Assembly: GCA_017443145.1 (NCBI GenBank)
Contig: JAFSPA010000009.1
Span: 124,001 to 188,000, forward strand
DNA length: 64,000 nt
From: Paludibacteraceae bacterium
GTDB taxonomy: Bacteria > Bacteroidota > Bacteroidia > Bacteroidales > Paludibacteraceae
Direction of reading: 5' to 3'
Positions within the stretch are counted from its first letter, which is position 1. Each line of letters opens with the position of its first letter. Under the pieces are notes generated by a model. The model ran no database searches. It saw nothing but the letters and a program-made list of their open reading frames with translations, and was not told the DNA's origin. Made by a program: the position numbers and the translations under genes. Of the stretch, positions 615 to 51,106 are shown in pieces.

Positions 615-669
615 AGTGCAGTAATAGTCCAATAATAGTCCAGTAATAGTCCAATAATAGTCCAATAAT
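615..669. repeat. 11-bp tandem repeat, 5 units
   Basis: Five consecutive 11-bp units of the form AGTCCAATAAT (variants AGTGCAGTAAT and AGTCCAGTAAT) fill the gap between the tRNA-Met terminator and the end of rpoD, stopping 9 bp short of the rpoD stop codon. It is one of seven 11-bp arrays in this window; the unit sequences differ but the period is the same. Confidence 0.93.
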
Positions 670-678
670 TACGGGATG

Positions 679-1539
679 TTAGCCGAGATAGGTTTTGAGG
701 ACTTTGTTGCGTTTACCGTCTTTTATTTTCCCGATTGCTTTTTCCTTAATCTGGCGCACGCGCTCACGCGTAAGACCCAGTTCTTCGCCAATCTCTTCAA
801 GTGTTTTCTCGGGAACGCCGATACCGAAGAACTTACGGAGTATTTCCGCCTCGCGCGGTACGAGTAGAGCAAGTGCTCTATCGATCTCGGTTTTGAGGGA
901 TTCGTTGATGAGTCCACGGTCAGCATTAGGTGAGTCCTCGTTGACCATTACGTCGATAAGGCTGTTATCTTCGCCTTCTACGAAAGGCGCATCCACAGAG
1001 ACATGTCGTCCGGACATCTTGAGCGTGTCAGCAATCTTATCAACAGGGATATCGAGTACTTCAGCGAGTTCTTCCGGTGAGGGTTTGCGCTCATGCTCTT
1101 GCTCAAAGCGTTGGAAAGCCTTGTTGATTTTGTTGAGCGATCCGACTTGGTTAAGCGGAAGACGCACGATACGTGATTGCTCCGCTAAGGCTTGTAGAAT
1201 CGATTGACGGATCCACCAAACGGCGTAGGAGATGAATTTAAAGCCACGTGTTTCATCGAATTTCTCAGCAGCTTTAATGAGTCCGAGGTTACCCTCGTTG
1301 ATAAGGTCAGGTAAGCTAAGTCCTTGGTTTTGGTACTGCTTAGCAACAGAGACGACAAATCGCAGGTTGGATTTGGTGAGTTTCTCAAGCGCAGCGCGAT
1401 CTCCTTGTCGGATACGTGCAGCGAGTTCCACCTCTTCCTCGACGGTTACGAGACTTTCGCGACCGATTTCCTGCAGATACTTGTCCAATGAAGCCGACTC
1501 ACGGTTAGTAATCGACTTTGTAATTTTAAGTTGACGCAT
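679..1539 (-). CDS. rpoD: Primary RNA polymerase sigma factor (sigma-70 / RpoD)
   Basis: At 286 residues this matches the short Bacteroidetes housekeeping sigma factor, which lacks region 1.1 and the long non-conserved insert. Visible in order: region 1.2 ([12 protein letters not shown]), region 2.1-2.4 ([50 protein letters not shown]), region 3 (about 130-200) and region 4.2 helix-turn-helix ([19 protein letters not shown]). It directs core RNA polymerase to TTTG/TAnnTTTG promoters such as those in this window. Only 22 bp separate it from the 3' end of tRNA-Arg with no terminator between, so it appears to be co-transcribed from the tRNA promoter at 1675-1706. The ATG at 1539 is the only plausible start. 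Confidence 0.97.
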
Positions 1540-1561
1540 TGTTAGTTATGCTTTAAATACG

Positions 1562-1635
1562 TGATTCGGGCGGGAGTCGAACCCGCGACCCACAGCTTAG
1601 AAGGCTGTTGCTCTATCCAACTGAGCTACCGAACC
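1562..1635 (-). tRNA. tRNA-Arg (TCT)
   Basis: On the minus strand the acceptor GGTTCGG pairs with CCGAATC, the anticodon stem is ACAGC/GCTGT with anticodon TCT, and the T stem is GCGGG/CCCGC. The discriminator is A; CCA is not encoded. It lies 22 bp upstream of rpoD in the same orientation with no terminator, so the tRNA is probably processed out of a tRNA-rpoD transcript. Confidence 0.94.
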
Positions 1636-1674
1636 TTACCCGCCATTTTCACGGCAGGTACACAAAAAAGCGCG

Positions 1675-1706
1675 CAAAAGTACTGCTTTTTTTTGAAATA
1701 ACCAAA
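1675..1706 (-). promoter_or_regulatory. Promoter of the tRNA-Arg-rpoD unit
   Basis: On the minus strand TTTG (1706-1703), a 20-nt spacer and TACTTTTG (1682-1675). The spacer ends in eight A and GCAG, identical to the tRNA-Met, typA and tRNA-Asn promoters. Confidence 0.8.
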
Positions 1707-1750
1707 TTTTTTATACAAAAAAATTACTTTTTGCGGTTTTTGTGTTGGTT

Positions 1751-2065
1751 TTACATCAATGCATCGATGATTTTTTCGAGGTCGGGCTTACGGCAAGCAC
1801 CTACGTGACGATTGACTAATTCTCCGTTTTTGAAGAAGAGCATCGTCGGGATATTCATAATGCCATACTGCTCGCATGTGTCTGGATTTTCGTCCACATT
1901 GAGTTTACCGATGATGACTTTTCCATCGTATTGTTTGGCAAGTTCGTCCACGATGGGGAGCATCATTTTGCAAGGGCCACACCATGGTGCCCAGAAATCG
2001 ATTACCACGGGCTGTGCCGAGGCCAACAGTTGTTGGATGTTGGAATCCGTTACTTCGTACGTCAT
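1751..2065 (-). CDS. trxA: Thioredoxin
   Basis: A 104-residue single-domain thioredoxin with the redox site WCGPC (about residues 28-32), the preceding DFWAPW, and the cis-proline segment NIPTMLFF. It reduces protein disulfides in the cytoplasm. Its ATG (2065-2063) overlaps the TGA stop of the ClpC-like gene (2064-2062), so the two are translationally coupled at the end of a long minus-strand operon. There is no signal peptide, so it is cytoplasmic rather than one of the periplasmic TlpA-like proteins common in this phylum. Confidence 0.95.
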   Translation of the reverse strand: MTYEVTDSNIQQLLASAQPVVIDFWAPWCGPCKMMLPIVDELAKQYDGKVIIGKLNVDENPDTCEQYGIMNIPTMLFFKNGELVNRHVGACRKPDLEKIIDALM

Positions 2066-4323: not shown

Positions 4324-4329
4324 AGGCTT

Positions 4330-6336: not shown

Positions 6337-6339
6337 GCT

Positions 6340-7617: not shown

Positions 7618-7628
7618 AACTATAAATT

Positions 7629-8888: not shown

Positions 8889-8889
8889 A

Positions 8890-10830
8890 CTATTCTTGGT
8901 ATTTTTTCATGGTATCCATAACTGAGATAACAGCCGCTACACTCGGAGCATAAGACATGCCGCCGTGCCCTTTATATGGAGGGTTGCCATCGTATAACTC
9001 ATTGAGCGTGCCTATGCAATGTTCGCTCATCTCTACCTCAAAGCCAACCAACATGCGTTGCATGAAACTCAGGCCGCTTTGCTTGTAAATGGTCATGTAA
9101 GCGCGGGAATAGGCCGCAATCGTATTCGGCCAAACAGGACCGTTGTGGAAGTTGCGATCACGCTCCAACTGACCACCAACATAAATCGGACGATAATCGC
9201 CGCTCTTCGGAGACAGTGTACGCAAGCCGCGAGGCGTCAGCAACTCTCTCGTGCAGATATCCACTACCGCTTTCTGCTGCTTGCGATCCAGTGGACTGTA
9301 CGGCAATCCAACGGCCCAAATCATGTTCGGACGAACTTCCTTATTATGGTAGTTGTCTACTACATAGTCATCCAAATAGAAACCATTCCAGAACGTCTTT
9401 ACAAACGCTTCACGACAAATCTCTGCCTGGTACTCCATCAAATCTGCGCCAATCTCCTTACCTGCTTCACGCATCAACTCGGCCGTGAAACGCATAGCGT
9501 TGTACCACAGCGCATTAATCTCAACCACATAACCCGTTCGCGGAGTAATAGGCCAGCCGTTTTCCGTCGCGTTCATCCAAGTTGCCGGAACACGTGTGCC
9601 ATCCACCCAAATCAGTCCATTCTGATGAACCCATGCACGCGGATGGTGCTGCTTGCGATAATACGAGATAATATCTTCGCACAATCCAGCATACTTGTCT
9701 GCAGCTTGCTTAACCGTATATTTATGCGCGTACTTCTGCAAAGCACGAACAAACCACAATAACGCATCCGGCTCATCCATTCCTGTGATTCGCGACTTAT
9801 AACTACTATCTGCCATAAACGCACGAACTTCACCTATGGCCGTCTGATCAATAATCGCATCCCAATATTCAGGACGATCTATATCTAACGTGCAACTCGG
9901 TGTCGACATAAACTCCTCACGTGCTGAAGCGTGAAACCAGGGATAACCTGCTAACAAATAGCACTTATCTCCTTCGCGTTTGTAGAACTGCGATGCCGCA
10001 TTACGCAAGCACTCGAACATGTCCGTACGCGCATTACGACGCTCCAACTCTTTCTTCCACAATGCCTTCAGACTTGCCGGCTTCACTTCGCTGATACCTG
10101 CTGCAAAAATCAAACTCTCACCTTTCTTCATCGGCACCTCAAAATAACCCGGTACCAATAAATCTTCCTTATACTCATAACCCCGCTCTTGCTCCTTCTG
10201 GTACTCTATATTCTTGTACCACATCGGGTTATGCGAATAGGTGATAGCCTTCGAGAACTGCATAAACAGCTGCGGAAACTCCGGATACAGGCAGTTTACA
10301 CGACCGTTCTCGCAATCGTTCATATCCGCATTCGCGCGGTTGTTCTCATGCGTCAACTCATTCACGCTGCGGAAAGCCAGAAACGGACGAAAACGCATCG
10401 TCACAGGTGCACCACACTCCACTAACGTATAACGTATCAGCACGCGAGGCTCAAAACTTACCAGCAAACGCTCTTTCGTCAAAACCACACCACCTACACG
10501 ATACGTCGTCTTCGCAATCACTTCGCAATCAAACTCACGAATGTACTTGTGACCATTCGGCGAAAAATGATTCTCACCATACTTGTGCAAGCCAAGATTG
10601 AACTCAGCCCCATGCTGAATCACCGTCTCATCTAACGAACTCAGCAGTACATAGTTGTCATCACCCAACTGAGGCAACGGCAACACCAGTTGTCCATGAT
10701 ATTTACGTGTGTTACAATCAACTAAAGTCGTCGAATTGTACACACCGGCACGGTTCGTCCGAAGCATCTCTTTCTGCAAAGAACGCTCCAAATTCACCAT
10801 CAACGCCTTGTCAAAATTTAAGTAACTCAT
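8890..10830 (-). CDS. Glycogen debranching enzyme (amylo-alpha-1,6-glucosidase family)
   Basis: 646 residues. The N-terminal beta-rich domain (1-270, including RTNRAGVYNSTTLVDCNTRKYHG) matches the bacterial/archaeal GDE_N domain. The C-terminal (alpha/alpha)6 toroid (about 300-640) contains DEPDALLWFVRALQKY, ATWMNATENGWPITPRTGY and NGPVWPNTIAAYSRAY; its acidic residues are expected to be catalytic. It hydrolyses alpha-1,6 branch points of glycogen. It is the first gene of a six-gene minus-strand operon and has its own promoter at 10875-10906 in a divergent region shared with the YhcH gene. Confidence 0.9.
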   Translation of the reverse strand: MSYLNFDKALMVNLERSLQKEMLRTNRAGVYNSTTLVDCNTRKYHGQLVLPLPQLGDDNYVLLSSLDETVIQHGAEFNLGLHKYGENHFSPNGHKYIREFDCEVIAKTTYRVGGVVLTKERLLVSFEPRVLIRYTLVECGAPVTMRFRPFLAFRSVNELTHENNRANADMNDCENGRVNCLYPEFPQLFMQFSKAITYSHNPMWYKNIEYQKEQERGYEYKEDLLVPGYFEVPMKKGESLIFAAGISEVKPASLKALWKKELERRNARTDMFECLRNAASQFYKREGDKCYLLAGYPWFHASAREEFMSTPSCTLDIDRPEYWDAIIDQTAIGEVRAFMADSSYKSRITGMDEPDALLWFVRALQKYAHKYTVKQAADKYAGLCEDIISYYRKQHHPRAWVHQNGLIWVDGTRVPATWMNATENGWPITPRTGYVVEINALWYNAMRFTAELMREAGKEIGADLMEYQAEICREAFVKTFWNGFYLDDYVVDNYHNKEVRPNMIWAVGLPYSPLDRKQQKAVVDICTRELLTPRGLRTLSPKSGDYRPIYVGGQLERDRNFHNGPVWPNTIAAYSRAYMTIYKQSGLSFMQRMLVGFEVEMSEHCIGTLNELYDGNPPYKGHGGMSYAPSVAAVISVMDTMKKYQE

Positions 10831-10874
10831 ATCACAAAAAGTTATATTAAGCGCAATTTCATAATAAACGGCTG

Positions 10875-10994: not shown

Positions 10995-11453
10995 ATGATA
11001 CTTGACAAACTCGAAAACGCTGACCTATATTACGACAGCGTACCAAGACTCGAACAGTTCATGCACTTCTTCAACAACAACGACCTTGAAGAATTCGCCG
11101 CAGGAAAAATCAAACTCGATGCCGACGACCTCTTCGTCAACATCATCGACCTCAAAGGAAAAGACGAAAAATCGCTCCCATTCGAGGCTCACAAAGACTA
11201 TATCGACATCCAAATCCCTCTCACAGCAGACGAACAAATGGGATGGAAAGCACTCGAGGACTGCCAGAATGTAACCGCTGAGTACGACGAAGGAAAAGAC
11301 GTCGAACTCTACAAAGAAAAAGCTACAACCATGCTCAATGTCCCCGTTGGTCACTTCGTCGTCTTCTTCCCTTCCGATGCACACCAACCCGGTATCGCTG
11401 AAAAAGGCAAAGAATTCCGCAAACTCATCGTCAAAACTCGCGTCGAAAACTAA
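10995..11453 (+). CDS. YhcH/YjgK/YiaL family protein (DUF386)
   Basis: 152 residues, a small cupin-like fold. Family marks seen: YIDIQIPLTADEQMGW, VPVGHFVVFFPSDAHQPG (metal-binding His) and RKLIVKTRV near the end. Members include sialic-acid and sugar anomerases (NanQ/EbgC type) that help catabolise amino sugars and beta-galactosides. Its location upstream of glgB and nagB (glucosamine-6-phosphate deaminase) supports a role in sugar or amino-sugar use; the substrate cannot be deduced. It has its own promoter, and a six-unit 11-bp repeat array separates it from glgB. Confidence 0.88.
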   Translation: MILDKLENADLYYDSVPRLEQFMHFFNNNDLEEFAAGKIKLDADDLFVNIIDLKGKDEKSLPFEAHKDYIDIQIPLTADEQMGWKALEDCQNVTAEYDEGKDVELYKEKATTMLNVPVGHFVVFFPSDAHQPGIAEKGKEFRKLIVKTRVEN

Positions 11454-11467: not shown

Positions 11468-11533
11468 AAACACCCGTTACAACCGTACGATAACCGTAGG
11501 ATAACCGTAAGATAACCGTACGATACCCGTAAC
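11468..11533. repeat. 11-bp tandem repeat, 6 units
   Basis: Six contiguous 11-bp units, central ones ATAACCGTACG, ATAACCGTAGG and ATAACCGTAAG; the first (AAACACCCGTT) and last (ATACCCGTAAC) are degenerate. It fills most of the gap between the YhcH stop and the glgB start. Confidence 0.93.
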
Positions 11534-11574
11534 ATATAGCCAATATCATGCTAACCAACTAATACCCAAATACT

Positions 11575-13608
11575 ATGGCAAAACATCTCAAACTAGTCAA
11601 ATCTGACCCGTATCTGCAACCCTACGAGAGTGCGTTGCAAGGGCGCTATGATTACGCCATCAACAAAGAGCAGGAAATAACCGGAGGAAAAACCCTCAGC
11701 GATTGGGCAACCGGTTACCTCTATTTCGGACTGCACCATACCAACAACGGTTGGGTGCTACGCGAATGGGCGCCAAATGCCACTGCCATCTACATCAAAG
11801 GCGACATGAACAACTGGTCCAAGGATGAGAACTATCGCCTTCAACCCGTTGGAAACGGCGTATGGGAAGCCAATCTCCCCGAGAATGCCATGCAACATGG
11901 ACAACTCTACAAACTGCTCGTCGAGTGGAACGGCGGCTACGGAGAACGCATCCCGAGCTATGCTCGACGCGTCGTACAAGACGACAACACCAAGATCTTC
12001 TCCGCACAAGTCTGGGCGCCGGCTGAATATAAATGGAAACATAAAACCATCAAAGGTGGCAAACAGAAAGAGGAACCGCTCTTTATCTACGAGTGCCACA
12101 TCGGTATGGCGGGAGATGCAGAGAAAGTCTCTACTTACGAGGAGTTCCGTCAGAACGTCCTTCCGCGTATCGCCAAACTCGGATATAACTGCGTGCAGAT
12201 CATGGCCATCCAAGAGCATCCTTACTACGGCTCCTTCGGTTACCATGTGTCCAACTTCTTCGCAGCTTCGTCACGTTTCGGAACACCCGAAGAACTCAAA
12301 GCTCTCATCGATGATGCACACTCCCGCGGCATTGCCGTTATCATGGACCTCGTGCACTCACATGCCGTCAAAAACGAACTTGAAGGACTCGGTAACTTCG
12401 ATGGTACGCCATACCAATACTTCCACGACGGAGCACGCCGCGAGCATCCCGCTTGGGATAGTCTCTGCTTCAACTACGCCAAACCCGAAGTGCTGCATTT
12501 CCTCCTTTCCAACTGCAAGTTCTGGATGGACGAATATGGCTTTGACGGCTTCCGTTTCGACGGCGTTACATCTATGATGTACCTCAGCCACGGACTGGGC
12601 GAAGACTTCAACGGATACGGCTCATACTTCAACGGCAACGAGGATGGCGATGCAATCATGTATCTCACGCTTGCCAATAAGCTTATCCACCAGGTTAAGA
12701 AAAACGCCATCACCATTGCGGAAGATATGTCCGGAATGCCCGGTCTCGCTTGCCCGCAGAAAGATGGTGGCGTCGGGTTCGACTACCGCCTCGCAATGGG
12801 AATACCTGATTTCTGGATCAAGTATATCAAGGAAGTGAAGGACGAAGATTGGAAAGCAGGACATATCCTCTACGAAATGACCAACCGTCGCCAAGACGAG
12901 AAAACCATCTCGTATGCCGAGTCGCACGACCAGGCACTTGTCGGAGACAAAACCATCATCTTCCGTCTCATCGATGCCGATATGTACTGGCACTTCGAAC
13001 ATGGCCATTCAACCTATATGGTGGACCGCGGAATAGCATTGCACAAGATGATTCGCCTCATCACCGCTTCTACCATCAACGGCGGATACCTCACCTTCAT
13101 GGGTAATGAGTTTGGACATCCCGAATGGATTGATTTCCCGCGCGAAGGAAACGGCTGGAGTTACAAGTACGCTCGCCGCCAATGGTCACTCGTGGACAAC
13201 CAGAACTACTTCTTCGCGGACCTCAACCGCTTTGATGCCGCAATGGTAGAACTGCTTCGTAACAACCTCCATATGGTTAAGGATGAAAACGGCACGCACC
13301 TGCCTTGGGTTTATACGCTTTGGGATAACGAAGGCGACCAAGTGGTAGCTTATCGTCGCGACAAGCTTGTCTTCGTCTTCAACTGGAATGGACAAAAATC
13401 CTTCTCCGACTACGGCATCCTTACCGCCGAAGGTAAGTATCGCGTCGTGCTTAATACCGACGCTAAGGAGTTCGCAGGATTTGGACTTTCCGACGATTCC
13501 ATCGAACATTTTACCCAACCTGACCCACTCTATAAAAAGGACCACAAAGGCTGGCTGAAACTGTACTTACCTGCCCGTTCCGCTGTCGTCCTCGAGCAAG
13601 TGAACTAA
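11575..13608 (+). CDS. glgB: 1,4-alpha-glucan branching enzyme
   Basis: 677 residues, GH13 of the eukaryote-like GlgB type. An N-terminal CBM48 (about 50-150, with LREWAPNATAIYIKGDMNNW) precedes the (beta/alpha)8 barrel: region I DLVHSHAVKNE, region II GFDGFRFDGV (nucleophile Asp, about residue 330), region III TIAEDMSG (acid Glu) and region IV AESHDQA. A C-terminal all-beta domain ends the protein. It introduces alpha-1,6 branches into glycogen and complements the synthase/debranching operon transcribed in the opposite direction just upstream. nagB follows after 34 bp. Confidence 0.97.
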   Translation: MAKHLKLVKSDPYLQPYESALQGRYDYAINKEQEITGGKTLSDWATGYLYFGLHHTNNGWVLREWAPNATAIYIKGDMNNWSKDENYRLQPVGNGVWEANLPENAMQHGQLYKLLVEWNGGYGERIPSYARRVVQDDNTKIFSAQVWAPAEYKWKHKTIKGGKQKEEPLFIYECHIGMAGDAEKVSTYEEFRQNVLPRIAKLGYNCVQIMAIQEHPYYGSFGYHVSNFFAASSRFGTPEELKALIDDAHSRGIAVIMDLVHSHAVKNELEGLGNFDGTPYQYFHDGARREHPAWDSLCFNYAKPEVLHFLLSNCKFWMDEYGFDGFRFDGVTSMMYLSHGLGEDFNGYGSYFNGNEDGDAIMYLTLANKLIHQVKKNAITIAEDMSGMPGLACPQKDGGVGFDYRLAMGIPDFWIKYIKEVKDEDWKAGHILYEMTNRRQDEKTISYAESHDQALVGDKTIIFRLIDADMYWHFEHGHSTYMVDRGIALHKMIRLITASTINGGYLTFMGNEFGHPEWIDFPREGNGWSYKYARRQWSLVDNQNYFFADLNRFDAAMVELLRNNLHMVKDENGTHLPWVYTLWDNEGDQVVAYRRDKLVFVFNWNGQKSFSDYGILTAEGKYRVVLNTDAKEFAGFGLSDDSIEHFTQPDPLYKKDHKGWLKLYLPARSAVVLEQVN

Positions 13609-13615
13609 TTGTTGA

Positions 13616-13630
13616 AATCATAAATCATAA
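13616..13630. repeat. Short 7-bp direct repeat between glgB and nagB
   Basis: AATCATA is repeated twice and followed by a partial copy (AATTT). It is a small example of the heptamer repeats also found at 34721-34769 and 42177-42211. Confidence 0.5.
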
Positions 13631-13642
13631 ATTTGAAATACT

Positions 13643-14435: not shown

Positions 14436-15908
14436 ATGCTCCAAATCTATAATACACTATCCCGACAGAAAGAGTATTTTCGACCATTGCACGAGGGACG
14501 CGTAGGCATGTATGTCTGCGGTCCCACCGTGTATGGCGATGCACACCTCGGACATGCTCGTCCCGCTATCACCTTTGACTTACTGTTCCGCTATCTCCAA
14601 TTCCTCGGATATAAGGTTCGCTATGTCCGCAACATCACGGATGTTGGACACCTCGAACACGATGCCGATGAAGGCGAGGATAAGATAGCAAAGAAAGCAC
14701 GGCTCGAACAACTCGAACCCATGGAAGTGGTACAGTATTATACCAACCGTTATCACCATGACATGGAAGCTCTCAACGTCCTTCCGCCGAGTATCGAACC
14801 GCATGCTTCGGGGCATATCATCGAGCAAATAGCTTTCGTGCAACGTATTCTTGACCATGGATATGCTTACATATCCAACGGTAGTGTATATATGGATGTG
14901 GAGAAATATGCCAAGGACTTCCCATACGGCAAACTCTCTGGTCGTAATCTCGAAGATATCGTTACCGATACCCGCGAACTCGACGGACAAGACGAGAAGA
15001 AACACTCCTACGACTTCGCCCTCTGGAAGAAAGCCGCGCCGGAACATATCATGCACTGGCCTTCACCATGGTCTGAAGGCTTCCCGGGTTGGCATATGGA
15101 ATGCTCAACCATGGGAACCAAATACCTCGGCGAAGAATTCGACATCCATGGTGGCGGAATGGACCTTATGTTCCCGCACCACGAAGCCGAAATAGCGCAA
15201 TCGTGTGCCGCGCTCGGTCATGAAACCGTCCACTACTGGATGCACAATAACATGATTACCATTGCCGGTAAAAAAATGGGTAAGTCATACAATAACTTTA
15301 TTACCCTTGAGCAGTTCTTCAAAGGCGAACATCCACTGCTGACAAAGCCGTTCTCTCCGATGACGATTCGTTTCTTCATCCTCATGGCGCACTATCGCTC
15401 AACCGTGGACTTCTCATCCGAAGCACTCGAAGCAGCGGAGAAAGGTTTTGCTCGTCTTCAAGAGGCATATGCTCGCTTGCTCAAACTCCAACCAAGCGAC
15501 AAAACATCCGGTGAAATCGAAGAAATTCGCATCTTACGCACCAAATGTCAAGAAGCGATGGATGACGATCTCAATAGCCCGATTGTGCTCCAGGCACTCT
15601 TCGATTCGGCACGTGTCATCAATACCATCCACGACCAAAAAGCCTCGATTTCATCGGAAGATTTGGACGAATTGCGCAAAGTCTGGAAAGACTATGCCAT
15701 CGACATCCTCGGCCTCAAATTAGAGGAGAATGATGCCGATGACAATAAGTTGAAAGCTTTCAACACTGCTGTCGACCTGCTCCTTGACATCCGCTTAGAT
15801 GCCAAGCGCAACAAAGACTGGGCTACAAGCGACAAAATTCGTAATAACCTCACTGAACTTGGATTCCAAATAAAAGACACCAAAGACGGTTACGAGTGGA
15901 CTTTGTAA
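14436..15908 (+). CDS. cysS: Cysteinyl-tRNA synthetase
   Basis: 490 residues from the ATG at 14436, 1 bp after the nagB stop. The reading frame stays open upstream to 14208, but that part overlaps nagB, and [15 protein letters not shown] is the usual start of the family. Class I aminoacyl-tRNA synthetase marks: [20 protein letters not shown] (zinc Cys and HIGH-like motif), GWHMECSTM, the zinc ligands around [10 protein letters not shown], and KMSKS as [10 protein letters not shown]. It charges tRNA-Cys, whose gene also lies in this window (51155-51225). Its last 13 bp overlap the GTG start of the giant secreted protein. Confidence 0.96.
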
Positions 15909-18900
15909 AAGCTAAGAAACATATCATCTTTTTCTTTCTCTTTCTCCTTGCTGCGAACTCCTTCGCGTGGGGAGACACTATTCCGTGGTATCCGGGCGAG
16001 ACCATAGAACTTCTTCCCGCACTTATCGAACAGCAAGAGCAGCCGCAGCAACCACAAAGCATTCCACAGCTAAAAAAAGCAACCGCTACCTTGGATGAAG
16101 CAACACTCGAAATCATCATAGATTCCGTCTATTTCCTCTATTCCGGCAATTACGACGGCACCTCTGCCTATATCAACATTGGAGCTAAACTCACCAATAC
16201 GGAGAATGTAGTCTTACCGCTCAATTACCGCTACGAAATATTCAGTGATGCGGCACTGACAAAACTCGTCACATATCAAACTTTTACCAATGTAACTAAT
16301 ACGCAACAATACGTATCTTTATACGCAGGCTCTTTTTCAGGAGTTTACTATTGGCGAGTAATCGTAGTGGAAGCGGGGACAGATTTCAATGACGTATCCA
16401 AGCGTGTCGTCAGCCCTGCTAAGCGGGTCATCTTATATACGGATAGAGAGATTTGTCGAAAAGGTAACTTACTCTTCCGAGAAGACTTCGGAGGCAACGA
16501 ACCTACCGATGACGCTGTGCGACAAACAACCGTGCCCGGACTCTTTGATCCTGCTTTCTATGGTGGAACAAATAAGTACCACCAAGTCCTGAACGACGAG
16601 TATAGTACCTCGTCCGAAATGTTTCAGCCCAATAACTACATCATCCTTAAGAAAGGTTTCTTCTATAAGGACAGACCATCCGCAGCATGGTCCGGATGGT
16701 ACCTACAAACGGACCACACCTTCCCCGATGATGAAACAAAAGGCTATTTCTTGGAAGTCAATGGCGCAGCCGGAACAGAGAAAATATATTCCACTCGGCT
16801 GGACAACCTCTGTCCTCAGTCGAAACTCACTTTTACTGCCTATTTCGCCAATATCGTTACGCGATATCAGGCGAATCGATGGACAAACACCAATCCTGCT
16901 TTCCGTATGGAAGTACGCGATGCAGTAGCCGATACCGTAATCATGGATATCCACTCCAAACCACTAAGTCTCCGTGGGGGATACGACTACTCGACAGCCT
17001 ATCAAAGCTCATCACCATGGAACTTAATCGGATTTCCTTTTGAGGTGCCGGATGGTGTGACATCTATAGATTTTGCTATCTACAATGATATCGAATCAGG
17101 AGCAAATGGTATGGACTATGCCTTGGACGATATTGAGGTTCGACGATGCGATATCCCAACTCCTACCATTACATCGCCCGAAGGAGCCTGCACGGACGAT
17201 GCATACCAGTTTACATACACCTTCGATGCTTTCGCTTTCGATCATTCATACCGCTGGCAACAACTCACCGGCGAACATCAATGGACCGACCGTAGCACCG
17301 ACCCTAACTGGCGAATTGAGCATGTGCAACACTCCGACAATGGCTGGTATCGACTAATCATCGGAGAAGCAAGCACCATCCATAATCCGAACTGCTGTGC
17401 TATTAGCGAACCGTTCCGTCTCACCGTCACCGATTGCCCTGCCCAATACACGGACGAAGCATTCTGCCCGGACGGAACAATCAAGCTCGCGCAGCACTAC
17501 GACCAAGTCACGCATGCGAACATCCAGTTTACAGATATCTATCCGGGACTACCTTATAATATTTACGCACGCGTGAAGAAACAAACCACTTCGCCTACCG
17601 GCGCGCGTATCACCGTCTCCGAATCCTCTTCACACCGACTCGTCGCGCAGTTCGATAGCGACCCGCTTCTAGGTAATGAATGGCACGAGATAGCCACTTC
17701 TTTTGTCGTTCCTGACTGGACATTCAATGTGGATGTGGATGTGACTCAATCAGGCACAGCTCCTATCCTCGTCGACAGTATCGCTATTCGTCTTTGCGCA
17801 CCGAAAATAACTTTAACAACCAGTGCCGAGGCACTATGCGCAAGTAATCCCTATATCGCCTTCATTCCGCATTATACGGATGACGGAACATTCAATCACA
17901 ACTGCTACTATGCTTACGAGTACTCCGCCGATGGCATCACTTGGAACGATGTCACAAACCACCACTCGGTGGTCTTTGTACAGCGACCTATGAAATATAA
18001 TCTTCCTACCCAGAGAAACCTGCCCGAAGGATGGTATAGAGTGAGTGTCACAGAAAGAAGTCTTATCGATAAACCTAACTGCAGAGCTTCGAGCGAACCT
18101 GTCTATATGCGTTGGGAAGATGAATGTCCGCCTTTCCCGCAAACACCACAAGACGAAGAATCACCTTACGTCTGCGAAGATGGTACACTTCTCTTCCGCG
18201 AGGACTTCGGTGGAAACGAACAAACTGCTCCATCCCAGAGTCAAACCCCCGTACCGCAGATGGCGGCAAGCGGATATAGGTTCATCAAAAATGACATTAT
18301 GGGTTCTTCAGGCAGCTATCGAGTCGTTAAATATGGCGCACAAAACAGCCGCAATAGCTCTAACACCGCCGGATTAAACTCACAGTGGCATATACAGGAT
18401 GACCATACATATCCCAATGACTATACACGAGGATATTTCCTCGAAATTGATGGTAACGGAAGTAATGTACCTTTCTATACCACGGATATCAATATCTGCC
18501 ACGAAATGGAACTCTCTTTCTCTGCTTATGTGGCGAACGTCATGGGAGCCGAGAATACCAAAGGCAGGTCTGGTATCGTCCTCCCTAAAGTCAGGTTTAT
18601 TATCGAAGACGCTAACGAAGATACGGTCATCCATGAGACAATCACAGACCCTATTGATTATTCATGGGAGTATTTGGACGTTCCTTATTCCACTATGTAC
18701 ACCTCCTCTAACTGGCACTTGGTAGGTACTTCGTTCCGAGTTCCAAAAGACGTGGAGAATGTTCGCCTATCTATCTTCAATGCCGCAGTAGGCTCCGATG
18801 GTAACGACTTCGCGCTCGACGATATCGAAATCAAACTCTGTAACCCGCAAGTGGAAATACGTTCGGAGAATGAAGCCTGCTTGGGTCACGACTACACATT

Positions 18901-21288: not shown

Positions 21289-21310
21289 GTATTGTCTAGG
21301 TATTGTCTAG
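21289..21310. repeat. 11-bp tandem repeat, 2 units
   Basis: GTATTGTCTAG occurs twice in direct succession, between the outer-membrane barrel gene and the promoter of the M3 peptidase gene. Confidence 0.85.
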
Positions 21311-21359
21311 GATTTCCCAAAGAAATTTAGAAGATTTTTTATACTATTTCTGCTAATTA

Positions 21360-32779: not shown

Positions 32780-34588
32780 TTATCTGTTTGCACGTTTTCT
32801 CTCGAGTTCATCGAGAATAATCTTACGAATACGCATAAAGTGAGGCGTTACCTCCACGTATTCATCCACTTTGATATATTCCAGCGCTTCTTCCAGCGAG
32901 AACTTGACTGCCGGAGCCAAGACAGCTTTGTCGTCGGCAGACTTTGTACGCATATTGGTCAGGTTCTTTGCTTTCACGACATTGATAACGATATCGCCTT
33001 CTTTCGCATTCTCGCCCACCACTTGTCCGGCATATACATCTTCCTGCGGCTCGATAAAGAATCGTCCACGGTCTTGTAGTTTGTCTAATGCATAAGCTGA
33101 AGCCGTTCCGCCTTCCATAGCAATCAGACTGCCGTTCACGCGTGTCGGCATCTCGCCTTTATACGGCTGATACTCCAGGAAACGGTGTGCCATAATCGCT
33201 TCACCCGCACTCACGTTCATTACATAAGTACGCATACCCATGATACCGCGGCTCGGAATAGTGAACTCAAGCTGTACTCGGTCATTCACCAACTCCATAC
33301 GCGTCATTTCGCCTTTGCGAACCGTCACGAACTCAATAATCTTGCCCGAACACTCTTCCGGCGTATTCACCGTCAGTTGCTCTACCGGTTCGCATTTCAC
33401 ACCATTAATCTCTTTGATGATGACTTGCGGCTGACCGACTTGCAACTCGTACCCTTCACGACGCATGGTCTCAATCAGTACCGACAGATGCAGCACGCCG
33501 CGACCAAACACCGTCCAAGATGAATCATTCACACTTGGTTCTACACGCAGCGCCAAGTTCTTCTCCAACTCTTTCATCAAACGGTCATGAATATGACGAC
33601 TCGTCACATACTTACCGTCTTGACCGAAGAACGGACTATCGTTAATCGTGAACACCATCGACATCGTCGGCTCGTCAATAGCAATTGGATCTAACGGTTC
33701 AGGATTCTCCACATCGCATATCGTATCGCCGATCTCGAATCCTTCTATACCGATAAGCGCGCAGATATCGCCACTACTTACCGCATCGGTCTTCACATGT
33801 CCCATGCCTTCAAAAGTATGCAACTCTTTTATCTTTGTCCGCACTTTCGTTCCGTCCTTCTTCGCCAGACAAACCGTCTGTCCGTCACGCAGTGTTCCAC
33901 GATGCACACGGCCGATGGCTATTCGGCCCACATATGGGTTGTAGTCCAGCGACGTAATCAGCATCTGCGGCGTACCTTCCAGCACTTCCGGCTCGGGAAT
34001 ATACTCGATAATGGCATCCATCAGCGCCGTCAAATCCGTCGTCGGCTTGCGATAATCGGTACTCATCCAGCCGTTCTTGGCTGAACCGAAGATAGTCTGG
34101 AAGTCCAACTGATCGTCGTTCGCGTCCAAGTTCACCATCAGGTCAAACACGGCTTCTTGCACCTCGTCCGGACGGCAATTGAGCTTATCCACTTTGTTAA
34201 TCACCACTATCGGCTTCAAGTTCAACTCTAACGCTTTCTGCAGCACAAAACGTGTCTGCGGCATCGGACCTTCGAACGCATCAACTAACAGCAATACGCC
34301 GTCAGCCATGTTCAGCACACGCTCTACTTCACCGCCAAAATCCGCGTGACCCGGAGTGTCAATGATGTTAATCTTGTAACCCTTGTAGTTAATCGCTACG
34401 TTCTTTGCAAGAATAGTAATGCCGCGTTCACGTTCCAAGTCGTTGTTATCCAAAATCAACTCCTTGTTCGCCACACCTTCTTGCCGCGATTCTTGAACCA
34501 CTTTCGCCGTGTAAAGCATCTTGTCCACCAGCGTCGTCTTGCCGTGGTCCACATGAGCAATAATTGCTATATTTCGTATCTTTTGCAT
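32780..34588 (-). CDS. typA: GTP-binding protein TypA/BipA
   Basis: 602 residues from the ATG at 34588 ([20 protein letters not shown]). A GTG two codons upstream is less likely. G1 [10 protein letters not shown]2 RGITI, G3 [13 protein letters not shown]4 NKVD and G5 GSAKNGW are all present, followed by EF-G-like domains III and V and the TypA-specific C-terminal domain. It is a translational GTPase needed for ribosome assembly or stress adaptation. It opens the typA-tig-mpl operon; the promoter (34646-34677) carries an 18-bp palindrome. Confidence 0.95.
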
Positions 34589-34645
34589 AGTCACTATAAA
34601 TTACGTCTTCGTGCGCGCACAATACGCATTATACAATTTAGCCCG

Positions 34646-34677
34646 CAAAAGTACTGCTTTTTTTTGACATATGCAAA
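34646..34677 (-). promoter_or_regulatory. Promoter of the typA operon with an 18-bp palindrome
   Basis: Minus-strand TTTG (34677-34674), 20-nt spacer with eight A and GCAG, TACTTTTG (34653-34646). The palindrome TATGCAAA-CA-TTTGCATA (34670-34687) is centred on the upstream edge of the -33 element, where a repressor or activator could sit. Confidence 0.8.
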
Positions 34678-34685
34678 CATTTGCA

Positions 34686-34718
34686 TAAAAAAGTGCAGAA
34701 ATCCTCAAATTCCTGCAC
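34686..34718 (-). terminator. Terminator of the 34853-35185 gene
   Basis: On the minus strand GTGCAGGAA pairs with TTTCTGCAC (34718-34710 with 34701-34693), followed by six T. It sits immediately upstream of the typA promoter and separates the two units. Confidence 0.75.
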
Positions 34719-34784: not shown

Positions 34785-34828
34785 CAATGGCTGCTCAATG
34801 GTTGCTCAATGGCTGCTCAATGGCTGCT
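34785..34828. repeat. 11-bp tandem repeat, 4 units
   Basis: Four 11-bp units CAATGGCTGCT (second unit CAATGGTTGCT) between the heptamer array and the stop codon of the 110-residue orphan gene. Confidence 0.93.
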
Positions 34829-37741: not shown

Positions 37742-38257
37742 TTACTTACTATAATCATATTGTCGTGCTGGAATGACTATAGATGGTTTTCTACCGAGCA
37801 GTTCCATTGAGAGAGCCTTGCATACAGGAAGAATATTTGAGAACTTGCCATTGACCAATTCGCCATATTGAGAGGCAGGACTTGACATCTGGCCTGTTTC
37901 AATGTCAATGAGATATGCCTCCAAATAGAACTCGCCGCTGGCTTTGGTGATAGTCGTTACGCAGATATAGTCTGCACCTGTCATTTCACCCAGTTTGTGG
38001 ATGGTGGCTTCACTTACATTTCCTGAACGTTGGAAACCTTGTTCATTCATCATCTGGTCGATGTCGGAACGACTAAAGGCTTCGTAGCCGTCCATTTGGA
38101 CTAATGCCTTACGCATTTCGCCACGAATCATAGCCTTTTCCATTGCAGCAATAGGCTCCGAACCTTCACCGGCACGCGCCTCTAATAAGGCGACCTTCTT
38201 TTGTGCAAATCCCGTGATAGCAAATGCTAAACACAATAATGTAATAATTTTTCTCAT
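37742..38257 (-). CDS. CsgG/FlgO-like secreted protein
   Basis: 171 residues from the ATG at 38257, which opens a signal peptide (MRKIITLLCLAFAITGFAQ); the longer frame to 38308 only adds an unlikely leader. The domain carries YEAFSRSDIDQMMNEQGFQ, HKLGEMTGADYICVTTITK and YLIDIETGQ, closely parallel to the N-half of the 35538-36581 protein, so the two are paralogues. It is the first gene of the trio, 23 bp ahead of the LPP20-like gene, and has a ~355-nt leader from the promoter at 38619-38650. Function unknown. Confidence 0.72.
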   Translation of the reverse strand: MRKIITLLCLAFAITGFAQKKVALLEARAGEGSEPIAAMEKAMIRGEMRKALVQMDGYEAFSRSDIDQMMNEQGFQRSGNVSEATIHKLGEMTGADYICVTTITKASGEFYLEAYLIDIETGQMSSPASQYGELVNGKFSNILPVCKALSMELLGRKPSIVIPARQYDYSK

Positions 38258-38613
38258 AAGTATGTATATTAGTTGTTCATTTGTTCGACGAATATAAGCT
38301 AATGACATTTATCGCATAAACTTATGGGCACAATAAAAGCGTAGACCTCGTGTTGCTTACTTACACACGAGGCCTAGCATACCTAATAGTTCAAATAAAC
38401 AACAAGAAACCTACGCCGATATGACAATACCTGCCGAGAAATGGCAAGTCATATAAAGTCATACCCATAGGCATCTATTGCTCACTTTGGTTTTGAACTA
38501 TTTTGTGAAAATTGCTAGTTTTCGTGTGTCAAACACAAAGCGTCAATAAACGCTATTCAATATGTCTGAACCTACCCCGATTATGAGAGACATTTCCCTC
38601 CAGCGTAGAATTC
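38258..38613 (-). ncRNA. Candidate structured leader or small RNA upstream of the CsgG/LPP20 trio
   Basis: This follows a good minus-strand promoter and contains several perfect helices. The pair 38492-38502 with 38385-38395 (TTTGAACTATT/AATAGTTCAAA) encloses a hairpin whose arms are 38448-38454/38419-38425 and 38443-38447/38431-38435. A second hairpin, CCTCGTGT/ACACGAGG (38346-38353 with 38365-38372), is followed on the minus strand by ACGCTTTTATT, like a terminator. CTACGC at 38411-38416 can pair with GCGTAG at either 38339-38344 or 38603-38608. It lacks tmRNA, RNase P and SRP RNA signatures. It could be a 5' leader, a trans-acting sRNA, or 6S-like. Confidence 0.45.
38543..38593 (-). CDS. 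Possible 16-codon leader peptide
   Basis: In the leader of the CsgG/LPP20 trio, GGAGGG (38601-38596) is followed after two bases by ATG (38593) and 16 codons (MSLIIGVGSDILNSVY) to TGA. A Shine-Dalgarno-like sequence is rare in this window, but spacing is very short. This is a weak candidate, listed because of its position within the structured leader. Confidence 0.2.
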   Translation of the reverse strand: MSLIIGVGSDILNSVY

Positions 38614-38755: not shown

Positions 38756-38872
38756 AAAGAGCAGAAGCATGGTCGCTTAGGTGGAGAGTTGGCGGGTCGG
38801 ACGGTGCGGCATCTGTGGGACTATATCCGAGTTAGGATGGCCATGAATAATCCGCTATAGTGACGGTGGAGT
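38756..38872 (+). ncRNA. Candidate untranslated transcript (G-rich)
   Basis: The ~117 bases after the orphan promoter are strikingly G-rich compared with the AT-rich surroundings and contain only tiny reading frames. A short hairpin ATCC-GAGTTA-GGAT and GCGG/CCGC pairing options exist, but no known RNA family is recognised. The segment ends at the first of two 11-bp repeat arrays. It may be a small RNA or a degraded gene. Confidence 0.3.
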
Positions 38873-38916
38873 TATAGTTAAGTCATAGTTAAGTCATAGT
38901 TGAGTCATAGTTGAGT
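38873..38916. repeat. 11-bp tandem repeat, 4 units
   Basis: Units TATAGTTAAGT, CATAGTTAAGT, CATAGTTGAGT and CATAGTTGAGT, directly after the G-rich candidate transcript. Confidence 0.93.
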
Positions 38917-38926
38917 CAGGAGTGAA

Positions 38927-38970
38927 AACCTATCAGGAACCTATCAGAAACCTATGAGGAACCTATGGCC
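38927..38970. repeat. 11-bp tandem repeat, 4 units
   Basis: Units AACCTATCAGG, AACCTATCAGA, AACCTATGAGG and AACCTATGGCC, 10 bp after the previous 11-bp array but with an unrelated sequence. Confidence 0.93.
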
Positions 38971-39050
38971 GGTGGTGGAGAAGTCGTGTCTTACTAAATG
39001 ATTAAAAACATTCTTCTATGTGAGCATAATTCGATTTTTTTACCGATTTA

Positions 39051-39115: not shown

Positions 39116-40666
39116 ATGAAAGCATTATTAATGATTCTTGATGGTTGGGGAATCGGCCAAAAAACAGCCGCCAATGCCATCTATTCAACGAACACGCCTC
39201 ACTGGACTGCGTTACTGGAGAAGTATCCGAACTCGCAACTGCAAGCCAGCGGCGAAAACGTCGGTCTGCCTGACGGACAAATGGGTAACTCGGAAGTAGG
39301 CCACCTCAATATCGGTGCCGGACGAGTAGTGTATCAGGACTTGGTGAAGATTAACCGTGCTTGCAAGGACGGTTCGATTCGCCAGAATCCGGAAATCATC
39401 TCCGCCTTCAGCCATGCGAAAGAGAGTGGTAAGAAGTTGCACATCATGGGTTTGACCTCTAATGGTGGTGTGCATAGTTCGCTGGACCATCTGTTCTACC
39501 TGCTTCAGATAGCAAAGGAATACGGTCTGGATGGTCGCACGTTTGTACATTGCTTCATGGACGGTCGTGATACGGACCCGCGTTCGGGTATCGGATTCAT
39601 CGATCAGCTTGAGGAGCAAATGGCCAAAACTACCGGTGAAATCGCAACAATTCAAGGACGGTTCTATGCGATGGACCGTGACAAACGTTGGGAGCGCGTG
39701 AAGATTGCGTATGACTGTTTGGTTCATGGCAAGGGTGCTAACTTTGAGAATATGCACGAAGCGATGCAAGCATCCTACGACGCCGATGTGACGGACGAGT
39801 TCATCAAACCGATTGTGCATGTGCGTAACGGCCAACCGCTCGCTAAAATCGAGGAAGGCGACGTGGTTATCTTCTTTAATTATCGTAACGACCGCGCACG
39901 CGAAATGACGATTGTGCTCACGCAGCAAGATATGCCGGACCAAGGCATGATGACGATTCCTAATCTGGACTACTACTGCATGACGCCTTACGAGTCCACT
40001 TTCACGGGTTTACATATCCTCTTCCCGAAAGAGAATGTGCAGAATACTCTCGGTGAAATCGTAGCAAAAGCGGGTATGAAGCAACTGCGTATCGCCGAAA
40101 CGGAGAAGTTCGCGCACGTGACATTCTTCTTCTCCGGTGGACGTGACGCACAGTTTGAGAACGAGGACAGAATTCTTATTCCGTCCCCGAAAGTGGCGAC
40201 CTACGACTTACAGCCTGAGATGTCTGCACCGGAAGTTGCTGCGGCCTTGAACGAAGCGCTGGATAGTCAGAAGTATGACTGCATCATGCTCAACTTCGCC
40301 AACGGCGATATGGTAGGCCATACAGGCGTGTATAACTCAATTCAGCAGGCCGTTGTGACGATTGATATCTGCGTGGACCGCGTAGTCAAAGCAGCTCGCA
40401 AGAACGGATATGAAGTGATTATTATTGCCGACCATGGCAATGCGGATAATGCGGTTAACCCGGACGGAACACCGAACACAGCGCACTCACTCAATCCGGT
40501 ACCGTTCGTTTATATCCCTGCTGACAGCAAGGAGAAAGACGGTAAGTTCCCATATACCTGTGAAGATGGTATCTTAGCAGACGTCGCTCCGTCTATCTGC
40601 CACATCTTAGGTATCGAACAACCTGCCGAGATGACAGGTCATTGCCTCATTCACGAAGTGAAGTAA
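39116..40666 (+). CDS. gpmI: 2,3-bisphosphoglycerate-independent phosphoglycerate mutase
   Basis: 516 residues, full length. The alkaline-phosphatase-like metal site is seen as LMILDGWG and [18 protein letters not shown] (phosphoserine at QMGNSE), with [10 protein letters not shown] and [10 protein letters not shown] near the end. The inserted phosphotransferase domain includes [11 protein letters not shown] and [17 protein letters not shown]. It interconverts 3- and 2-phosphoglycerate in glycolysis and needs Mn2+. It has its own promoter and ends 2 bp from the convergent sirtuin gene, with no terminator visible between. Confidence 0.97.
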
Positions 40667-41370: not shown

Positions 41371-41401
41371 ATAATTCGTAATTTTTTGTTTAAATTTAGG
41401 G

Positions 41402-41449: not shown

Positions 41450-41467
41450 CACGCTAAAAGTGCAAAG

Positions 41468-42175: not shown

Positions 42176-42176
42176 T

Positions 42177-42211
42177 TGTGTAATGTGGAATGTGGAATGT
42201 GTAATGTGGAA
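42177..42211. repeat. 7-bp tandem repeat at the start of the porW-like gene
   Basis: Five heptamers TGTGTAA, TGTGGAA, TGTGGAA, TGTGTAA, TGTGGAA start one base after the tsaB stop codon and run into the first codons of the next gene, supplying its candidate GTG/ATG starts. Confidence 0.9.
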
Positions 42212-44821: not shown

Positions 44822-44833
44822 AATCTCATTACT

Positions 44834-45586: not shown

Positions 45587-45611
45587 TTGGAATTGATTAA
45601 AACGAACAACT

Positions 45612-47530: not shown

Positions 47531-47531
47531 A

Positions 47532-48272: not shown

Positions 48273-49638
48273 CCAATAAATAGTTCTGTATAACCGTTTG
48301 TACGTTCTTGGCTTTTCCTTGCGCGCTATTCACCAAAATCGCGAATACCCATTGTTTGCCGTTTGGCAAATCTATATATCCGGCAAAGTTTTTTGTTCCA
48401 GCTATGGTTCCGCTCTTGGCATGAATCTTTCCTTCCAACTCGGTTCCACGACATAAACTGCTCAACGTGCCGTTTTTATTGCCGCTTATAGGTAGTGATT
48501 GCATCCACACTTCGCGGTATTTGCTATGATTCATGTATTGCAACAACTCCACCAACGCCTCAGCACTTATAGCACCTTGTGGCGCCAAGCCGCAGCCATC
48601 TTTAATAAGTGCACCTTTGACCGTTACACCACGCATTCTCCAAAACTCTCGGAGCACATCGCAGGAGTTATGTATCGTTCCGGGTTTGCCGTAATTCAAA
48701 CCCAGATAGCGGAAGATAGCCTCCGCATAGAGGTTGTTACTATACAAATTTGTTTCCGCTATCAAAGCTCCCAACGAATCGGACTTATGCTCGTAAATCA
48801 TGGTTCGCACGCCTGTATCTAATTGACTCTCAGCAATAAACGAAGCCGGTTTAGTCACTTTGACACCACTCTCTTGCAGATATTTGGTCAGATGGGTTGC
48901 CAGCAACCATCCGGGATTGGGCATATCACTTCTAACACCAAACTGTCCGCGGTTACTCGGCACACTACCTGTCAAATACCGCTCATTCGAATAGGGCAGG
49001 CCATGCACATACGCGCCATCATACGTGATTTCCGTGCACCGAATATGGTTGATCGTTTGTAGTCCCGGATATTCGGGTTCGGTACGAATCACTTCCGCTA
49101 CACTTCCTACTTCGGCACTACGCAAAACGATATTGAGCGTATTGCTCATATAATTGAGCGCAAAGATGCCTGGTGCATAGTAATTGCCCGTATCTTCCCA
49201 CAACCATGAGGGATTCGCTGCATCACCATCCAATAGACTCAAGTCGGCAATGACAGCACCATCGATTGAACGTATCCCTGCGGCTTTAATGGCTTTAATC
49301 CAGCGGAAGATAAACGCTTGTGTTCCTTTTAGATTGCCCAACGACGGATCACATCCACCACGGATATATAAATCACCATGCAGCACGCCGTTCTCGATAT
49401 ATCCCGTATATTCCAACGTGGTAGTGAATCGGAAACTTGGTCCCAACATCTCCAAAGCAGCACCTGTAGTCAGCAGTTTCTGGACGCTGGCAGGTGGAAC
49501 GACATTGTCCGGACGATAGGAGTCAATCACTTTTCCTGTTTCGGCATCTTTAATCAACACACTTATATTTGCCTGCTGGCAGTTTGGTGCATCGGTTAAA
49601 ATAGAAATCGCCAATAATATAGTAGCAAGTATTTTCAT
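48250..49638 (-). CDS. dacB: D-alanyl-D-alanine carboxypeptidase/endopeptidase (PBP4, S13)
   Basis: 462 residues, with a short signal peptide (MKILATILLAISILTDA). The S13 active-site triad motifs are PPASVQKLLTTGAAL (SxxK), TNLYSNNLYAEAIF (SxN) and HAKSGTIAGTKNFAGY (KSG). The insert domain between SxxK and SxN is present. It trims or cross-links peptidoglycan peptides in the periplasm. It directly abuts sufB (0 bp between) and overlaps birA by 23 bp. Confidence 0.94.
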   Translation of the reverse strand: MKILATILLAISILTDAPNCQQANISVLIKDAETGKVIDSYRPDNVVPPASVQKLLTTGAALEMLGPSFRFTTTLEYTGYIENGVLHGDLYIRGGCDPSLGNLKGTQAFIFRWIKAIKAAGIRSIDGAVIADLSLLDGDAANPSWLWEDTGNYYAPGIFALNYMSNTLNIVLRSAEVGSVAEVIRTEPEYPGLQTINHIRCTEITYDGAYVHGLPYSNERYLTGSVPSNRGQFGVRSDMPNPGWLLATHLTKYLQESGVKVTKPASFIAESQLDTGVRTMIYEHKSDSLGALIAETNLYSNNLYAEAIFRYLGLNYGKPGTIHNSCDVLREFWRMRGVTVKGALIKDGCGLAPQGAISAEALVELLQYMNHSKYREVWMQSLPISGNKNGTLSSLCRGTELEGKIHAKSGTIAGTKNFAGYIDLPNGKQWVFAILVNSAQGKAKNVQTVIQNYLLDVYKSNQ

Positions 49639-51072
49639 CTATCCAACAGTTCCTTCCAAGGACACTTGTAATAATTTCTGGGCTTCGACGGCAAACTCCA
49701 TCGGCAGTTTATCCATCACTTCCTTAGCATATCCGTTCACGATCAGCCCAACCGCATCTTCCACACCTATGCCACGTTGGCGACAATAGAAGAGCTGGTC
49801 TTCGGAAATCTTAGAAGTTGTTGCCTCATGCTCAATCGTCGCCGTTGGATTGGCAATCTGCATGTCCGGGAACGTGTGTGCGCCACATTTGTCTCCTAAT
49901 AGCAAGGAGTCGCATTGGGAATAGTTACGCACATCTTCTGCACCCGACACCACTTTAATCAATCCGCGGTATGCATTTTGGGAGTGTCCTGCAGATATAC
50001 CTTTACTAATAACGCGCGAGCGCGTGCGCGAGCCGAGGTGTATCATTTTGGTTCCGGTATCGGCTTGTTGGTAGTTGTTTGTGACGGCAACGGAGTAGAA
50101 TTCTGCCGAGGAATTATCGCCTTTCAAGATACAACTCGGATATTTCCACGTAATAGCCGAACCTGTCTCAACCTGCGTCCAGCTCAAACGAGCATTCTTA
50201 TAGGTAATACCACGTTTGGTCACGAAATTATAGATGCCGCCCTTACCATCTTTATCACCCGGATACCAGTTTTGCACAGTCGAATACTTCACTTCGGCAT
50301 CATCGTGCACAATAATCTCCACTATCGCAGCATGTAACTGATTCTCATCCCGCATCGGAGCTGTACATCCTTCCAGATAACTCAGATATGCACCTTCGTC
50401 GGCAATCAACAAAGTCCGTTCAAACTGCCCGGTATTACCGGCATTGATGCGGAAGTATGTCGATAACTCCATCGGGCAACGAACGCCTTTCGGGATATAG
50501 ACAAACGAACCGTCCGAGAACACCGCCGAGTTAAGTGCCGCATAAAAATTGTCGCTATAAGGAACAACTGAACCAAGATATTTCTTCACCAATTCAGGAT
50601 GTTCTTTAACTGCTTCGGATATGGAGCAGAAGATAATTCCCTTTTCGGCCAACGTCTCGCGGAAAGTTGTTTTAACGGAAACGGAATCCATCACAGCATC
50701 AACCGCCATGTTTCCTGCCAATGCCGCACGTTCTTCCAGAGGAATACCCAATTTGTCGAACGTCTTCATCACTTCCGGATCTATCTCTTTGTTTGTGGAT
50801 TCAGACTTTGCCTTTGGAGCAGCATAATAGGAAATAGCCTGAAAATCAATCTCGGGAATATCCAGATGTGCCCAAGTTGGCACTTCCATCGTCAGCCATT
50901 TACGATACGCCTTCAGCCGGAACTCCAACAGCCAATCCGGTTCGCCTTTCTTCGCAGAGATAAGGCGAATGACATCCTCATTCAGTCCGGTCGGAATGAT
51001 GTCTGTTTCGACATCTGTCGTGAACCCGTACTTATAGTCCTGATTCGTAATATCTTTTATAACGTCTTCCAT
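49639..51072 (-). CDS. sufB: Fe-S cluster assembly protein SufB
   Basis: 477 residues, normal for SufB. The beta-helix core contains [53 protein letters not shown] and the conserved tail [19 protein letters not shown] (Cys and His ligands). It is the scaffold of the SufBC2D complex. In most Bacteroidetes sufC and sufD follow; here dacB follows directly and neither is in the window. There is no recognisable promoter; an 11-bp repeat pair lies just upstream of the ATG. Confidence 0.95.
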
Positions 51073-51084
51073 TGTCTAATCCTT

Positions 51085-51106
51085 GCGTATCCCTAGCGTA
51101 TCCCTA
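51085..51106. repeat. 11-bp tandem repeat, 2 units
   Basis: GCGTATCCCTA twice in a row (a third copy starts GCGC...), 12 bp upstream of the sufB ATG on the minus strand and 15 bp downstream of the tRNA-Cys terminator. Confidence 0.88.

Follow-up and report, generated by a model that had tools for sequence, protein, structure and literature searches.

Why should seven intergenic tandem-repeat arrays in one bacterial genome all repeat at exactly 11 bp when their units bear no resemblance to one another? The question is raised by a 64,000-nucleotide stretch of a Paludibacteraceae bacterium (assembly GCA_017443145.1, contig JAFSPA010000009.1, positions 124,001 to 188,000), referred to here as the window, for which an initial annotation had listed these arrays. 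All seven are present at the positions claimed, all have period 11, and their location outside genes was borne out against the genes called with our home-made gene caller. Tandem Repeats Finder sets edges that differ from those annotated (610–669, 11481–11531, 21289–21311, 38870–38918, 38927–38966 and 51081–51109), and two further period-11 runs of two copies each lie inside open frames (10510–10531 and 56406–56427). Comparison across genomes recasts the observation as one length, several shared words and, as far as sampled, one genus of gut bacteria. Slightly short of even confidence, we read the arrays as predicted head-to-tail recognition sites in an 11-bp register, for which a family of small proteins, designated SP, would be the leading candidate readers.

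The genome that carries the window (the source genome) was sampled through the window and 19 further stretches, amounting to 429,657 of 1,900,379 bases with 45.5 kb of intergenic DNA, and this sample contained 27 intergenic arrays of period 11, compared with a mean of 0.05 and a maximum of 1 in 20 dinucleotide shuffles. The same sample held 3 arrays of period 10, 1 of period 12, 22 of period 7 and 13 of period 8. Comparison with neighbouring periods, named beforehand in the initial annotation as the way to refute its observation, left period 11 far commoner than 10 and 12 in the sample; 11 is not the sole favoured period, because periods 7 and 8 are enriched too. Stretches from 35 genomes of the genus, the source genome included (2.04 Mb, 241 kb intergenic), yielded 99 arrays of period 11, 95 of period 7, 38 of period 8, 11 of period 10 and 5 of period 12, in a sample that is partly non-random: the source genome contributes 30 of the 99 period-11 arrays (433 kb), two of its contigs were chosen for carrying the first unit searched, part of the genus stretches were picked for one array locus, and many others lie around matches of its flanking genes. 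Of these 35 genomes, 21 had a period-11 array or more in the stretch that was sampled. Outside the genus, 49.6 kb of intergenic sequence from ten genomes of the order, one of which belongs to the same family, held 2 arrays of period 11 and 3 of period 7, and 70 other Bacteroidales loci (55 kb intergenic) gave no intergenic array of period 11 and 13 of period 7. Period-11 arrays are a trait of the genus as far as it was sampled, and period 7 is more widespread. A literature search for intergenic 11-bp tandem repeats in Bacteroidetes found, by titles, no description of such arrays.

Arrays of the other periods have features of their own. The 7-bp arrays (TAATGAA, GTTTAGC and AGTCGAA type) hug gene 3' ends in codirectional spacers, at a median of 3 nt past the upstream gene (n=63), and occur in the window at 13615–13632 and 42177–42208 as well as at many genus loci. 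The 8-bp arrays, for example those with GTTAAATC-like units, are present in more than one species. At one sampled locus (L089: 13949–14273, 18820–19140 and 17979–18274), inverted copies of about 0.3 kb consist of repeat-rich non-coding DNA with periods of 8, 11, 19, 20 and 21 bp.

The statement that the units share no common sequence is correct for the seven window units among themselves and ceases to apply beyond the window, where units recur at other loci. The wider formulation drawn from it, a conserved length without conserved sequence, fails at the scale of the genus, since unit families are common to several species. Among 73 distinct units, 18 cross-genome pairs fell within one mismatch, compared with 0.42 for shuffled units and 0.85 for Markov units. 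Four families were distinguished, F1 (GTGATT core), F2 (CGTRTATC), F3 (AGTCCRA) and F4 (CCGACNGTC), which were found in 8, 8, 3 and 3 genomes, respectively, with one core mismatch allowed, and the source genome has at least five recurring unit families. The TAATAGTCCAA unit of the window is found at three other sampled loci of the source genome, AGTCCAATAAT and the unit family of the GCGTATCCCTA array each at three other sampled loci, and GCGTATCCCTW also at three, one of them with a mismatch. GTATTGTCTAG recurs at one other sampled locus, arrays related to its window array being those of L092 and G002, and the ATAACCGTACG unit of the window is found again in an array that precedes an SP gene of the same contig (G000:C22:550-656).

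Three consecutive F2 cores were detected in 63 of 178 genus genomes, the source genome included, and the reversed control gave 0; the other 197 genomes of the order gave none, the source genome being the sole positive among 198. The corresponding count for F1, 114 of 178 genus genomes, is less clean, since its reversed control gives hits too, which in some genomes are almost as many or more. Changes between neighbouring units hit the same positions in independent arrays (25 arrays of F1 and 12 of F2), and none of 5000 rotations was as uneven. The mismatches in four families hinted at a sub-period of 3.67 nt within units, which did not reach significance (p-value 0.15, 43 arrays). No flank word common to all arrays was found, the commonest flank words being A/T- or promoter-like.

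The two larger families also have a preferred orientation relative to transcription. Where the spacer is codirectional, the coding strand carries F2 as GATAYACG in 24 of 28 cases, a count in which most F2 loci had been retrieved with the F2 pattern itself and some are orthologues of one another, and it carries F1 as GTGATT in 13 of 14. The -7-like boxes located within 120 nt of 39 F2 arrays point in one direction only (9 towards the array, 3 away from it and 0 in the opposite direction), and those near F1 arrays number just 4, all in agreement. YGATW, a word chosen after F1 and F2 were seen and counted in a set that holds both families, is confined to the sense strand in 15 of 50 codirectional arrays and to the antisense strand in 2. 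Strand composition may contribute to this bias (35 of the 50 units are purine-rich in sense).

Clustering of 217 unique array-flanking proteins revealed SP as the largest cluster, with 12 members whose start faces the array in 12 of 12, although some of the members are orthologous and 7 come from loci fetched for F2. SP members are basic (pI 8.6–10.5). They gave no significant match in Pfam (21 members), in PHROGs or NCBIfam (4 members) or among PDB sequences. An origin of SP from phages or plasmids was considered and dropped: no relative appeared in viral contigs (profile A1) or in plasmids and phages (one member searched). Matches to the F2-type SP profile occur in 161 of 178 genus genomes and number 13 in the source genome, and a sample of 90 other-Bacteroidales loci (887,546 bases, 677 called genes) contained no SP match at E<=1. 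At L157 (553–909, genome G033) an SP gene stands beside an 11-unit F2 array, and its profile match covers only positions 1–72 of 126, the later residues being unlike the family.

An array was located within 250 nt upstream of 7 of 16 SP genes and of 38 of 1470 other genes (p-value 1.4e-7), in a count that excludes the stretches fetched for one array locus; where at least 100 nt of upstream room was available, the figures were 7 of 13 and 38 of 690. In a second set, made up of 89 listed F2 arrays with genome G100 excluded, 17 arrays precede a listed SP start by no more than 400 nt, and F2 lay on the strand opposite SP in 17 of 17. Without the six loci used to build the profile, 11 of 83 F2 arrays were listed in front of an SP start, compared with 0.03 expected. 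SP proteins of the RTRNGRTHAY type pair with F2, longer ones of the RDxxGRVI type go with F1, and two SP paralogues of genome G011 with 41% identity are both accompanied by F1.

The arrays turn over. In the spacer between the yhcH and amylase genes the source genome carries ATAACCGTACG, G121 and G174 carry ACGATAGATAY, and G131 has no array; at 29 genus loci of the sufB start region, read by eye, period and unit vary or the array is absent. L311 and L318 (G080 and G093) are 95% identical over 210 columns, and the array of one is longer by a single 11-bp unit than that of the other. Neutral tandem duplication, by slippage or by template switching across roughly one turn of the helix, would leave arrays in non-coding DNA that nothing reads; shared words would then reflect a sequence preference of this process and the copying of arrays from locus to locus. 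It is compatible with such presence, absence and unit change at orthologous places, with the single-unit indel, with the enrichment of periods 7 and 8, with equal density in convergent, codirectional and divergent spacers and, if the orientation bias follows strand composition, with that bias as well. We nevertheless regard it as unlikely, if with an appreciable chance, since the cross-species unit families lie far above shuffles, the F2 cores have a clean reversed control, the same positions vary in independent arrays, and the arrays are coupled to SP genes in a single orientation. The slippage offered by the initial annotation is visible only where an array already present has gained or lost a single unit, as between L311 and L318; neutral slippage alone leaves the shared families unexplained.

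For some arrays the similarity to another locus extends past the repeat itself: window 11477–11583 with C22 (107 bases at 82%), window 38891–38975 with L095 (88 bases at 87.5%) and L165 with L253 of G002 (198 bases at 81%). These stretches, together with a weak common leader and trailer of F2 arrays, in which T is enriched at steps of about 5.5 nt on the left, would be compatible with a dispersed family resembling miniature inverted-repeat transposable elements (MITEs), spread by copying and having an internal 11-bp minisatellite as its body. Such a family is rather improbable in our estimate: the shared blocks start and stop at differing distances from the array, and the empty G131 spacer, judged by eye, is not a clean excision. 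Membership among BrickBuilt-like MITEs fails on inverted-repeat ends, a 9-nt inverted match between the 80-nt flanks being found, in a count without shuffled control, in just 2 of 39 F2 arrays.

Several observations weigh against recognition of the arrays by proteins, and by SP in particular. The SP family was chosen after inspection of the flanking genes, and 9 of the 16 SP genes, that of the window among them, have no array within 250 nt upstream. The correlation between unit distance and SP protein distance (Mantel test on 13 members, r 0.76, reached in 0 of 20000 permutations) speaks for SP, but the members of that set are related by descent, and joint inheritance of gene and array may be all that links them. 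Strong SP-A matches, taken at our own cut-off of E below 1e-35, are present in 25 of 115 F2-negative genomes as well as in 34 of 63 F2-positive ones (p-value 2.4e-5), and without the six profile genomes in 28 of 57 F2-positive ones (p-value 4e-4); SP-A and F2 are associated across genomes without forming a rule, their co-occurrence being only partial, and in G033, which is richest in F2 cores, the SP-A match is only a partial one. No fold or motif marking SP as nucleic-acid binding emerged from Pfam, from structural modelling or from comparison with the PDB, the single-sequence model of the window member being poor and all helical (mean pLDDT 66.6) with a best PDB match at E 5.1. Two G002 arrays stand in both the F1 and the F2 list, and arrays are frequently not kept at orthologous places. 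Array density per kb is similar in convergent (0.49), codirectional (0.37) and divergent (0.44) spacers.

A promoter-operator reading from density alone is unsupported by the latter figures, in which promoter-bearing spacers are not favoured. This lack of promoter preference likewise speaks against arrays that serve as operators for ordinary response regulators of the OmpR/PhoB type, proteins whose sites are 11-nt direct repeats placed head to tail. Such units in this arrangement are what the arrays consist of, and the layout resembles the PHO boxes of Streptomyces PhoP (PMC7866108). Trans_reg_C matches number 2 in the source genome, 1–4 in 36 other genus genomes and 1–16 outside the genus, and assignment to the PhoB class fails because the 2 matches in the source genome face at least five recurring unit families; we hold this explanation to be very unlikely.

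Recognition of the arrays by proteins can be outlined as follows. The arrays would be cis-acting sites in which 11-bp units follow one another head to tail, each probably holding a single copy of a sequence-specific protein. Bound copies would then line up on the same face of the helix or on a single strand of RNA, and the molecule bound may be DNA or RNA. Separate proteins reading separate words would give one fixed length and several words, and the likeliest readers would be the paralogous small basic SP proteins, whose genes often carry arrays before their own starts. Gain and loss of whole units, along with copying of some arrays to new places, would keep the arrays clean and make them differ between species. 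We infer binding, regulation and the role of SP as reader from sequence patterns; of the two explanations offered by the initial annotation, a protein that recognises phased DNA appears the better supported, by families across species, constrained positions, orientation and SP coupling.

A more ambitious version, which is speculative and in our judgement improbable, would have a diversified, perhaps genus-specific SP family in which each subfamily reads its own 11-nt word before its own genes and at further chromosomal sites, protein specificity and word co-evolving. Proteins and arrays would then form a new kind of system with many members, whose target might be leader RNA. Should SP proteins prove to be the readers, the genus would offer naturally matched pairs of protein and word in a fixed 11-nt register, from which the way a small protein shifts to another word could be learned directly. 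Independently of SP, the spread of fixed-length repeats with several common words through the intergenic DNA of many species makes the origin and use of bacterial minisatellites testable.

Period-11 arrays and the SP gene in the 64,000-nucleotide window
Feature	Position	Strand	Description and surroundings
F3 array (TAATAGTCCAA)	610–669	+	about 5.5 units; 9 nt off the 3' end of a sigma-70-type gene (679–1539, −)
Array ATAACCGTACG	11468–11533	+	between yhcH/DUF386 gene (10995–11453, +) and alpha-amylase-type gene (11575–13608, +)
Two-unit array GTATTGTCTAG	21289–21311	+	upstream of peptidase M3 gene (21427–23526, +)
Array CAATGGCTGCT	34785–34828	−	24 nt off the 3' end of the window SP gene; upstream of BipA-type gene (32780–34594, −)
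Divergent SP gene, 110 amino acids	34853–35185	−	profile match; array 34785–34828 on its 3' side
Array CATAGTTAAGT/CATAGTTGAGT	38870–38918	+	between divergent genes (37742–38308, − and 39116–40666, +)
Array AACCTATCAGG/AACCTATCAGA/AACCTATGAGG	38927–38970	+	adjoins the 38870–38918 array; period 22 in our own scan
Array GCGTATCCCTA	51081–51109	+	about 2.6 units; 8 nt upstream of sufB-type gene (49639–51072, −)

The product of the window SP gene gave no significant Pfam match. A promoter-like stretch lies between the CAATGGCTGCT array and the BipA-type gene, and a promoter-like block of 40–75 nt (TTTGC...AAAAAAA...TACTTTTGC) is present at window 34635–34711 and at about fifteen other places in the sampled genome with 75–91% identity. 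The right part of the 38870 array and the 38927 array form one block that is present at L095 too. The SufB-type protein is closest to Bacteroidales and Paludibacteraceae metagenome-assembled genomes, some of which are labelled rumen, rectum or cecum. Inside an open frame at 15896–20356, a coding repeat array with 18-, 30- and 36-bp periods occupies 19793–19938.

The arrays share features with several known systems and differ from each of them. Bacterial genomes show a 10–11 bp sequence periodicity, a weak phasing of A/T runs (PMC516772, PMC4132750, PMC1242344), which likewise has a period near one helical turn in non-coding DNA; the arrays, unlike this phasing, repeat at exactly 11. Intergenic DNA of the genus, with arrays and the 40 nt around them masked, shows phasing of A and T runs at 10.4–10.5 bp, to 50 bp and beyond, and in the outside sample, which comprises about a quarter as much DNA, this phasing is clearly weaker. 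Curvature by A-tracts was rejected as the cause of the arrays, which are exact 11-mers mostly without A-runs. BrickBuilt of Porphyromonas gingivalis (PMC4596501), an intergenic minisatellite with leader and tail parts, many copies, a 23-nt unit and inverted-repeat ends, resembles the arrays in being an intergenic minisatellite of a Bacteroidales genome and differs from their 11-nt units, their several families and their flanks, where inverted ends were not found.

The parS sites of pSM19035, bound by Omega/ParB, consist of 7-bp non-palindromic repeats (WATCACW) in both orientations with one dimer per repeat (PMC9499535). Runs of short non-palindromic repeats are common to both systems, those of parS lying over promoters that include the promoter of the binding protein's own gene; unlike parS, the arrays have a period of 11 rather than 7 bp and several words rather than one consensus. 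SP gave no significant ribbon-helix-helix match in Pfam (21 members), and its poor single-sequence model is all helical. The PHO boxes of Streptomyces PhoP (PMC7866108) are built from 11-nt direct repeat units, two before pstS and four core plus two weaker ones before pitH2, and share with the arrays the head-to-tail order of 11-nt units, a core flanked by weaker units and the position in front of genes. The present genomes have too few OmpR/PhoB-type genes for such a system, and while PHO boxes combine one regulator with one consensus, several words are found here, in about 30 sampled arrays within 433 kb of a single genome.

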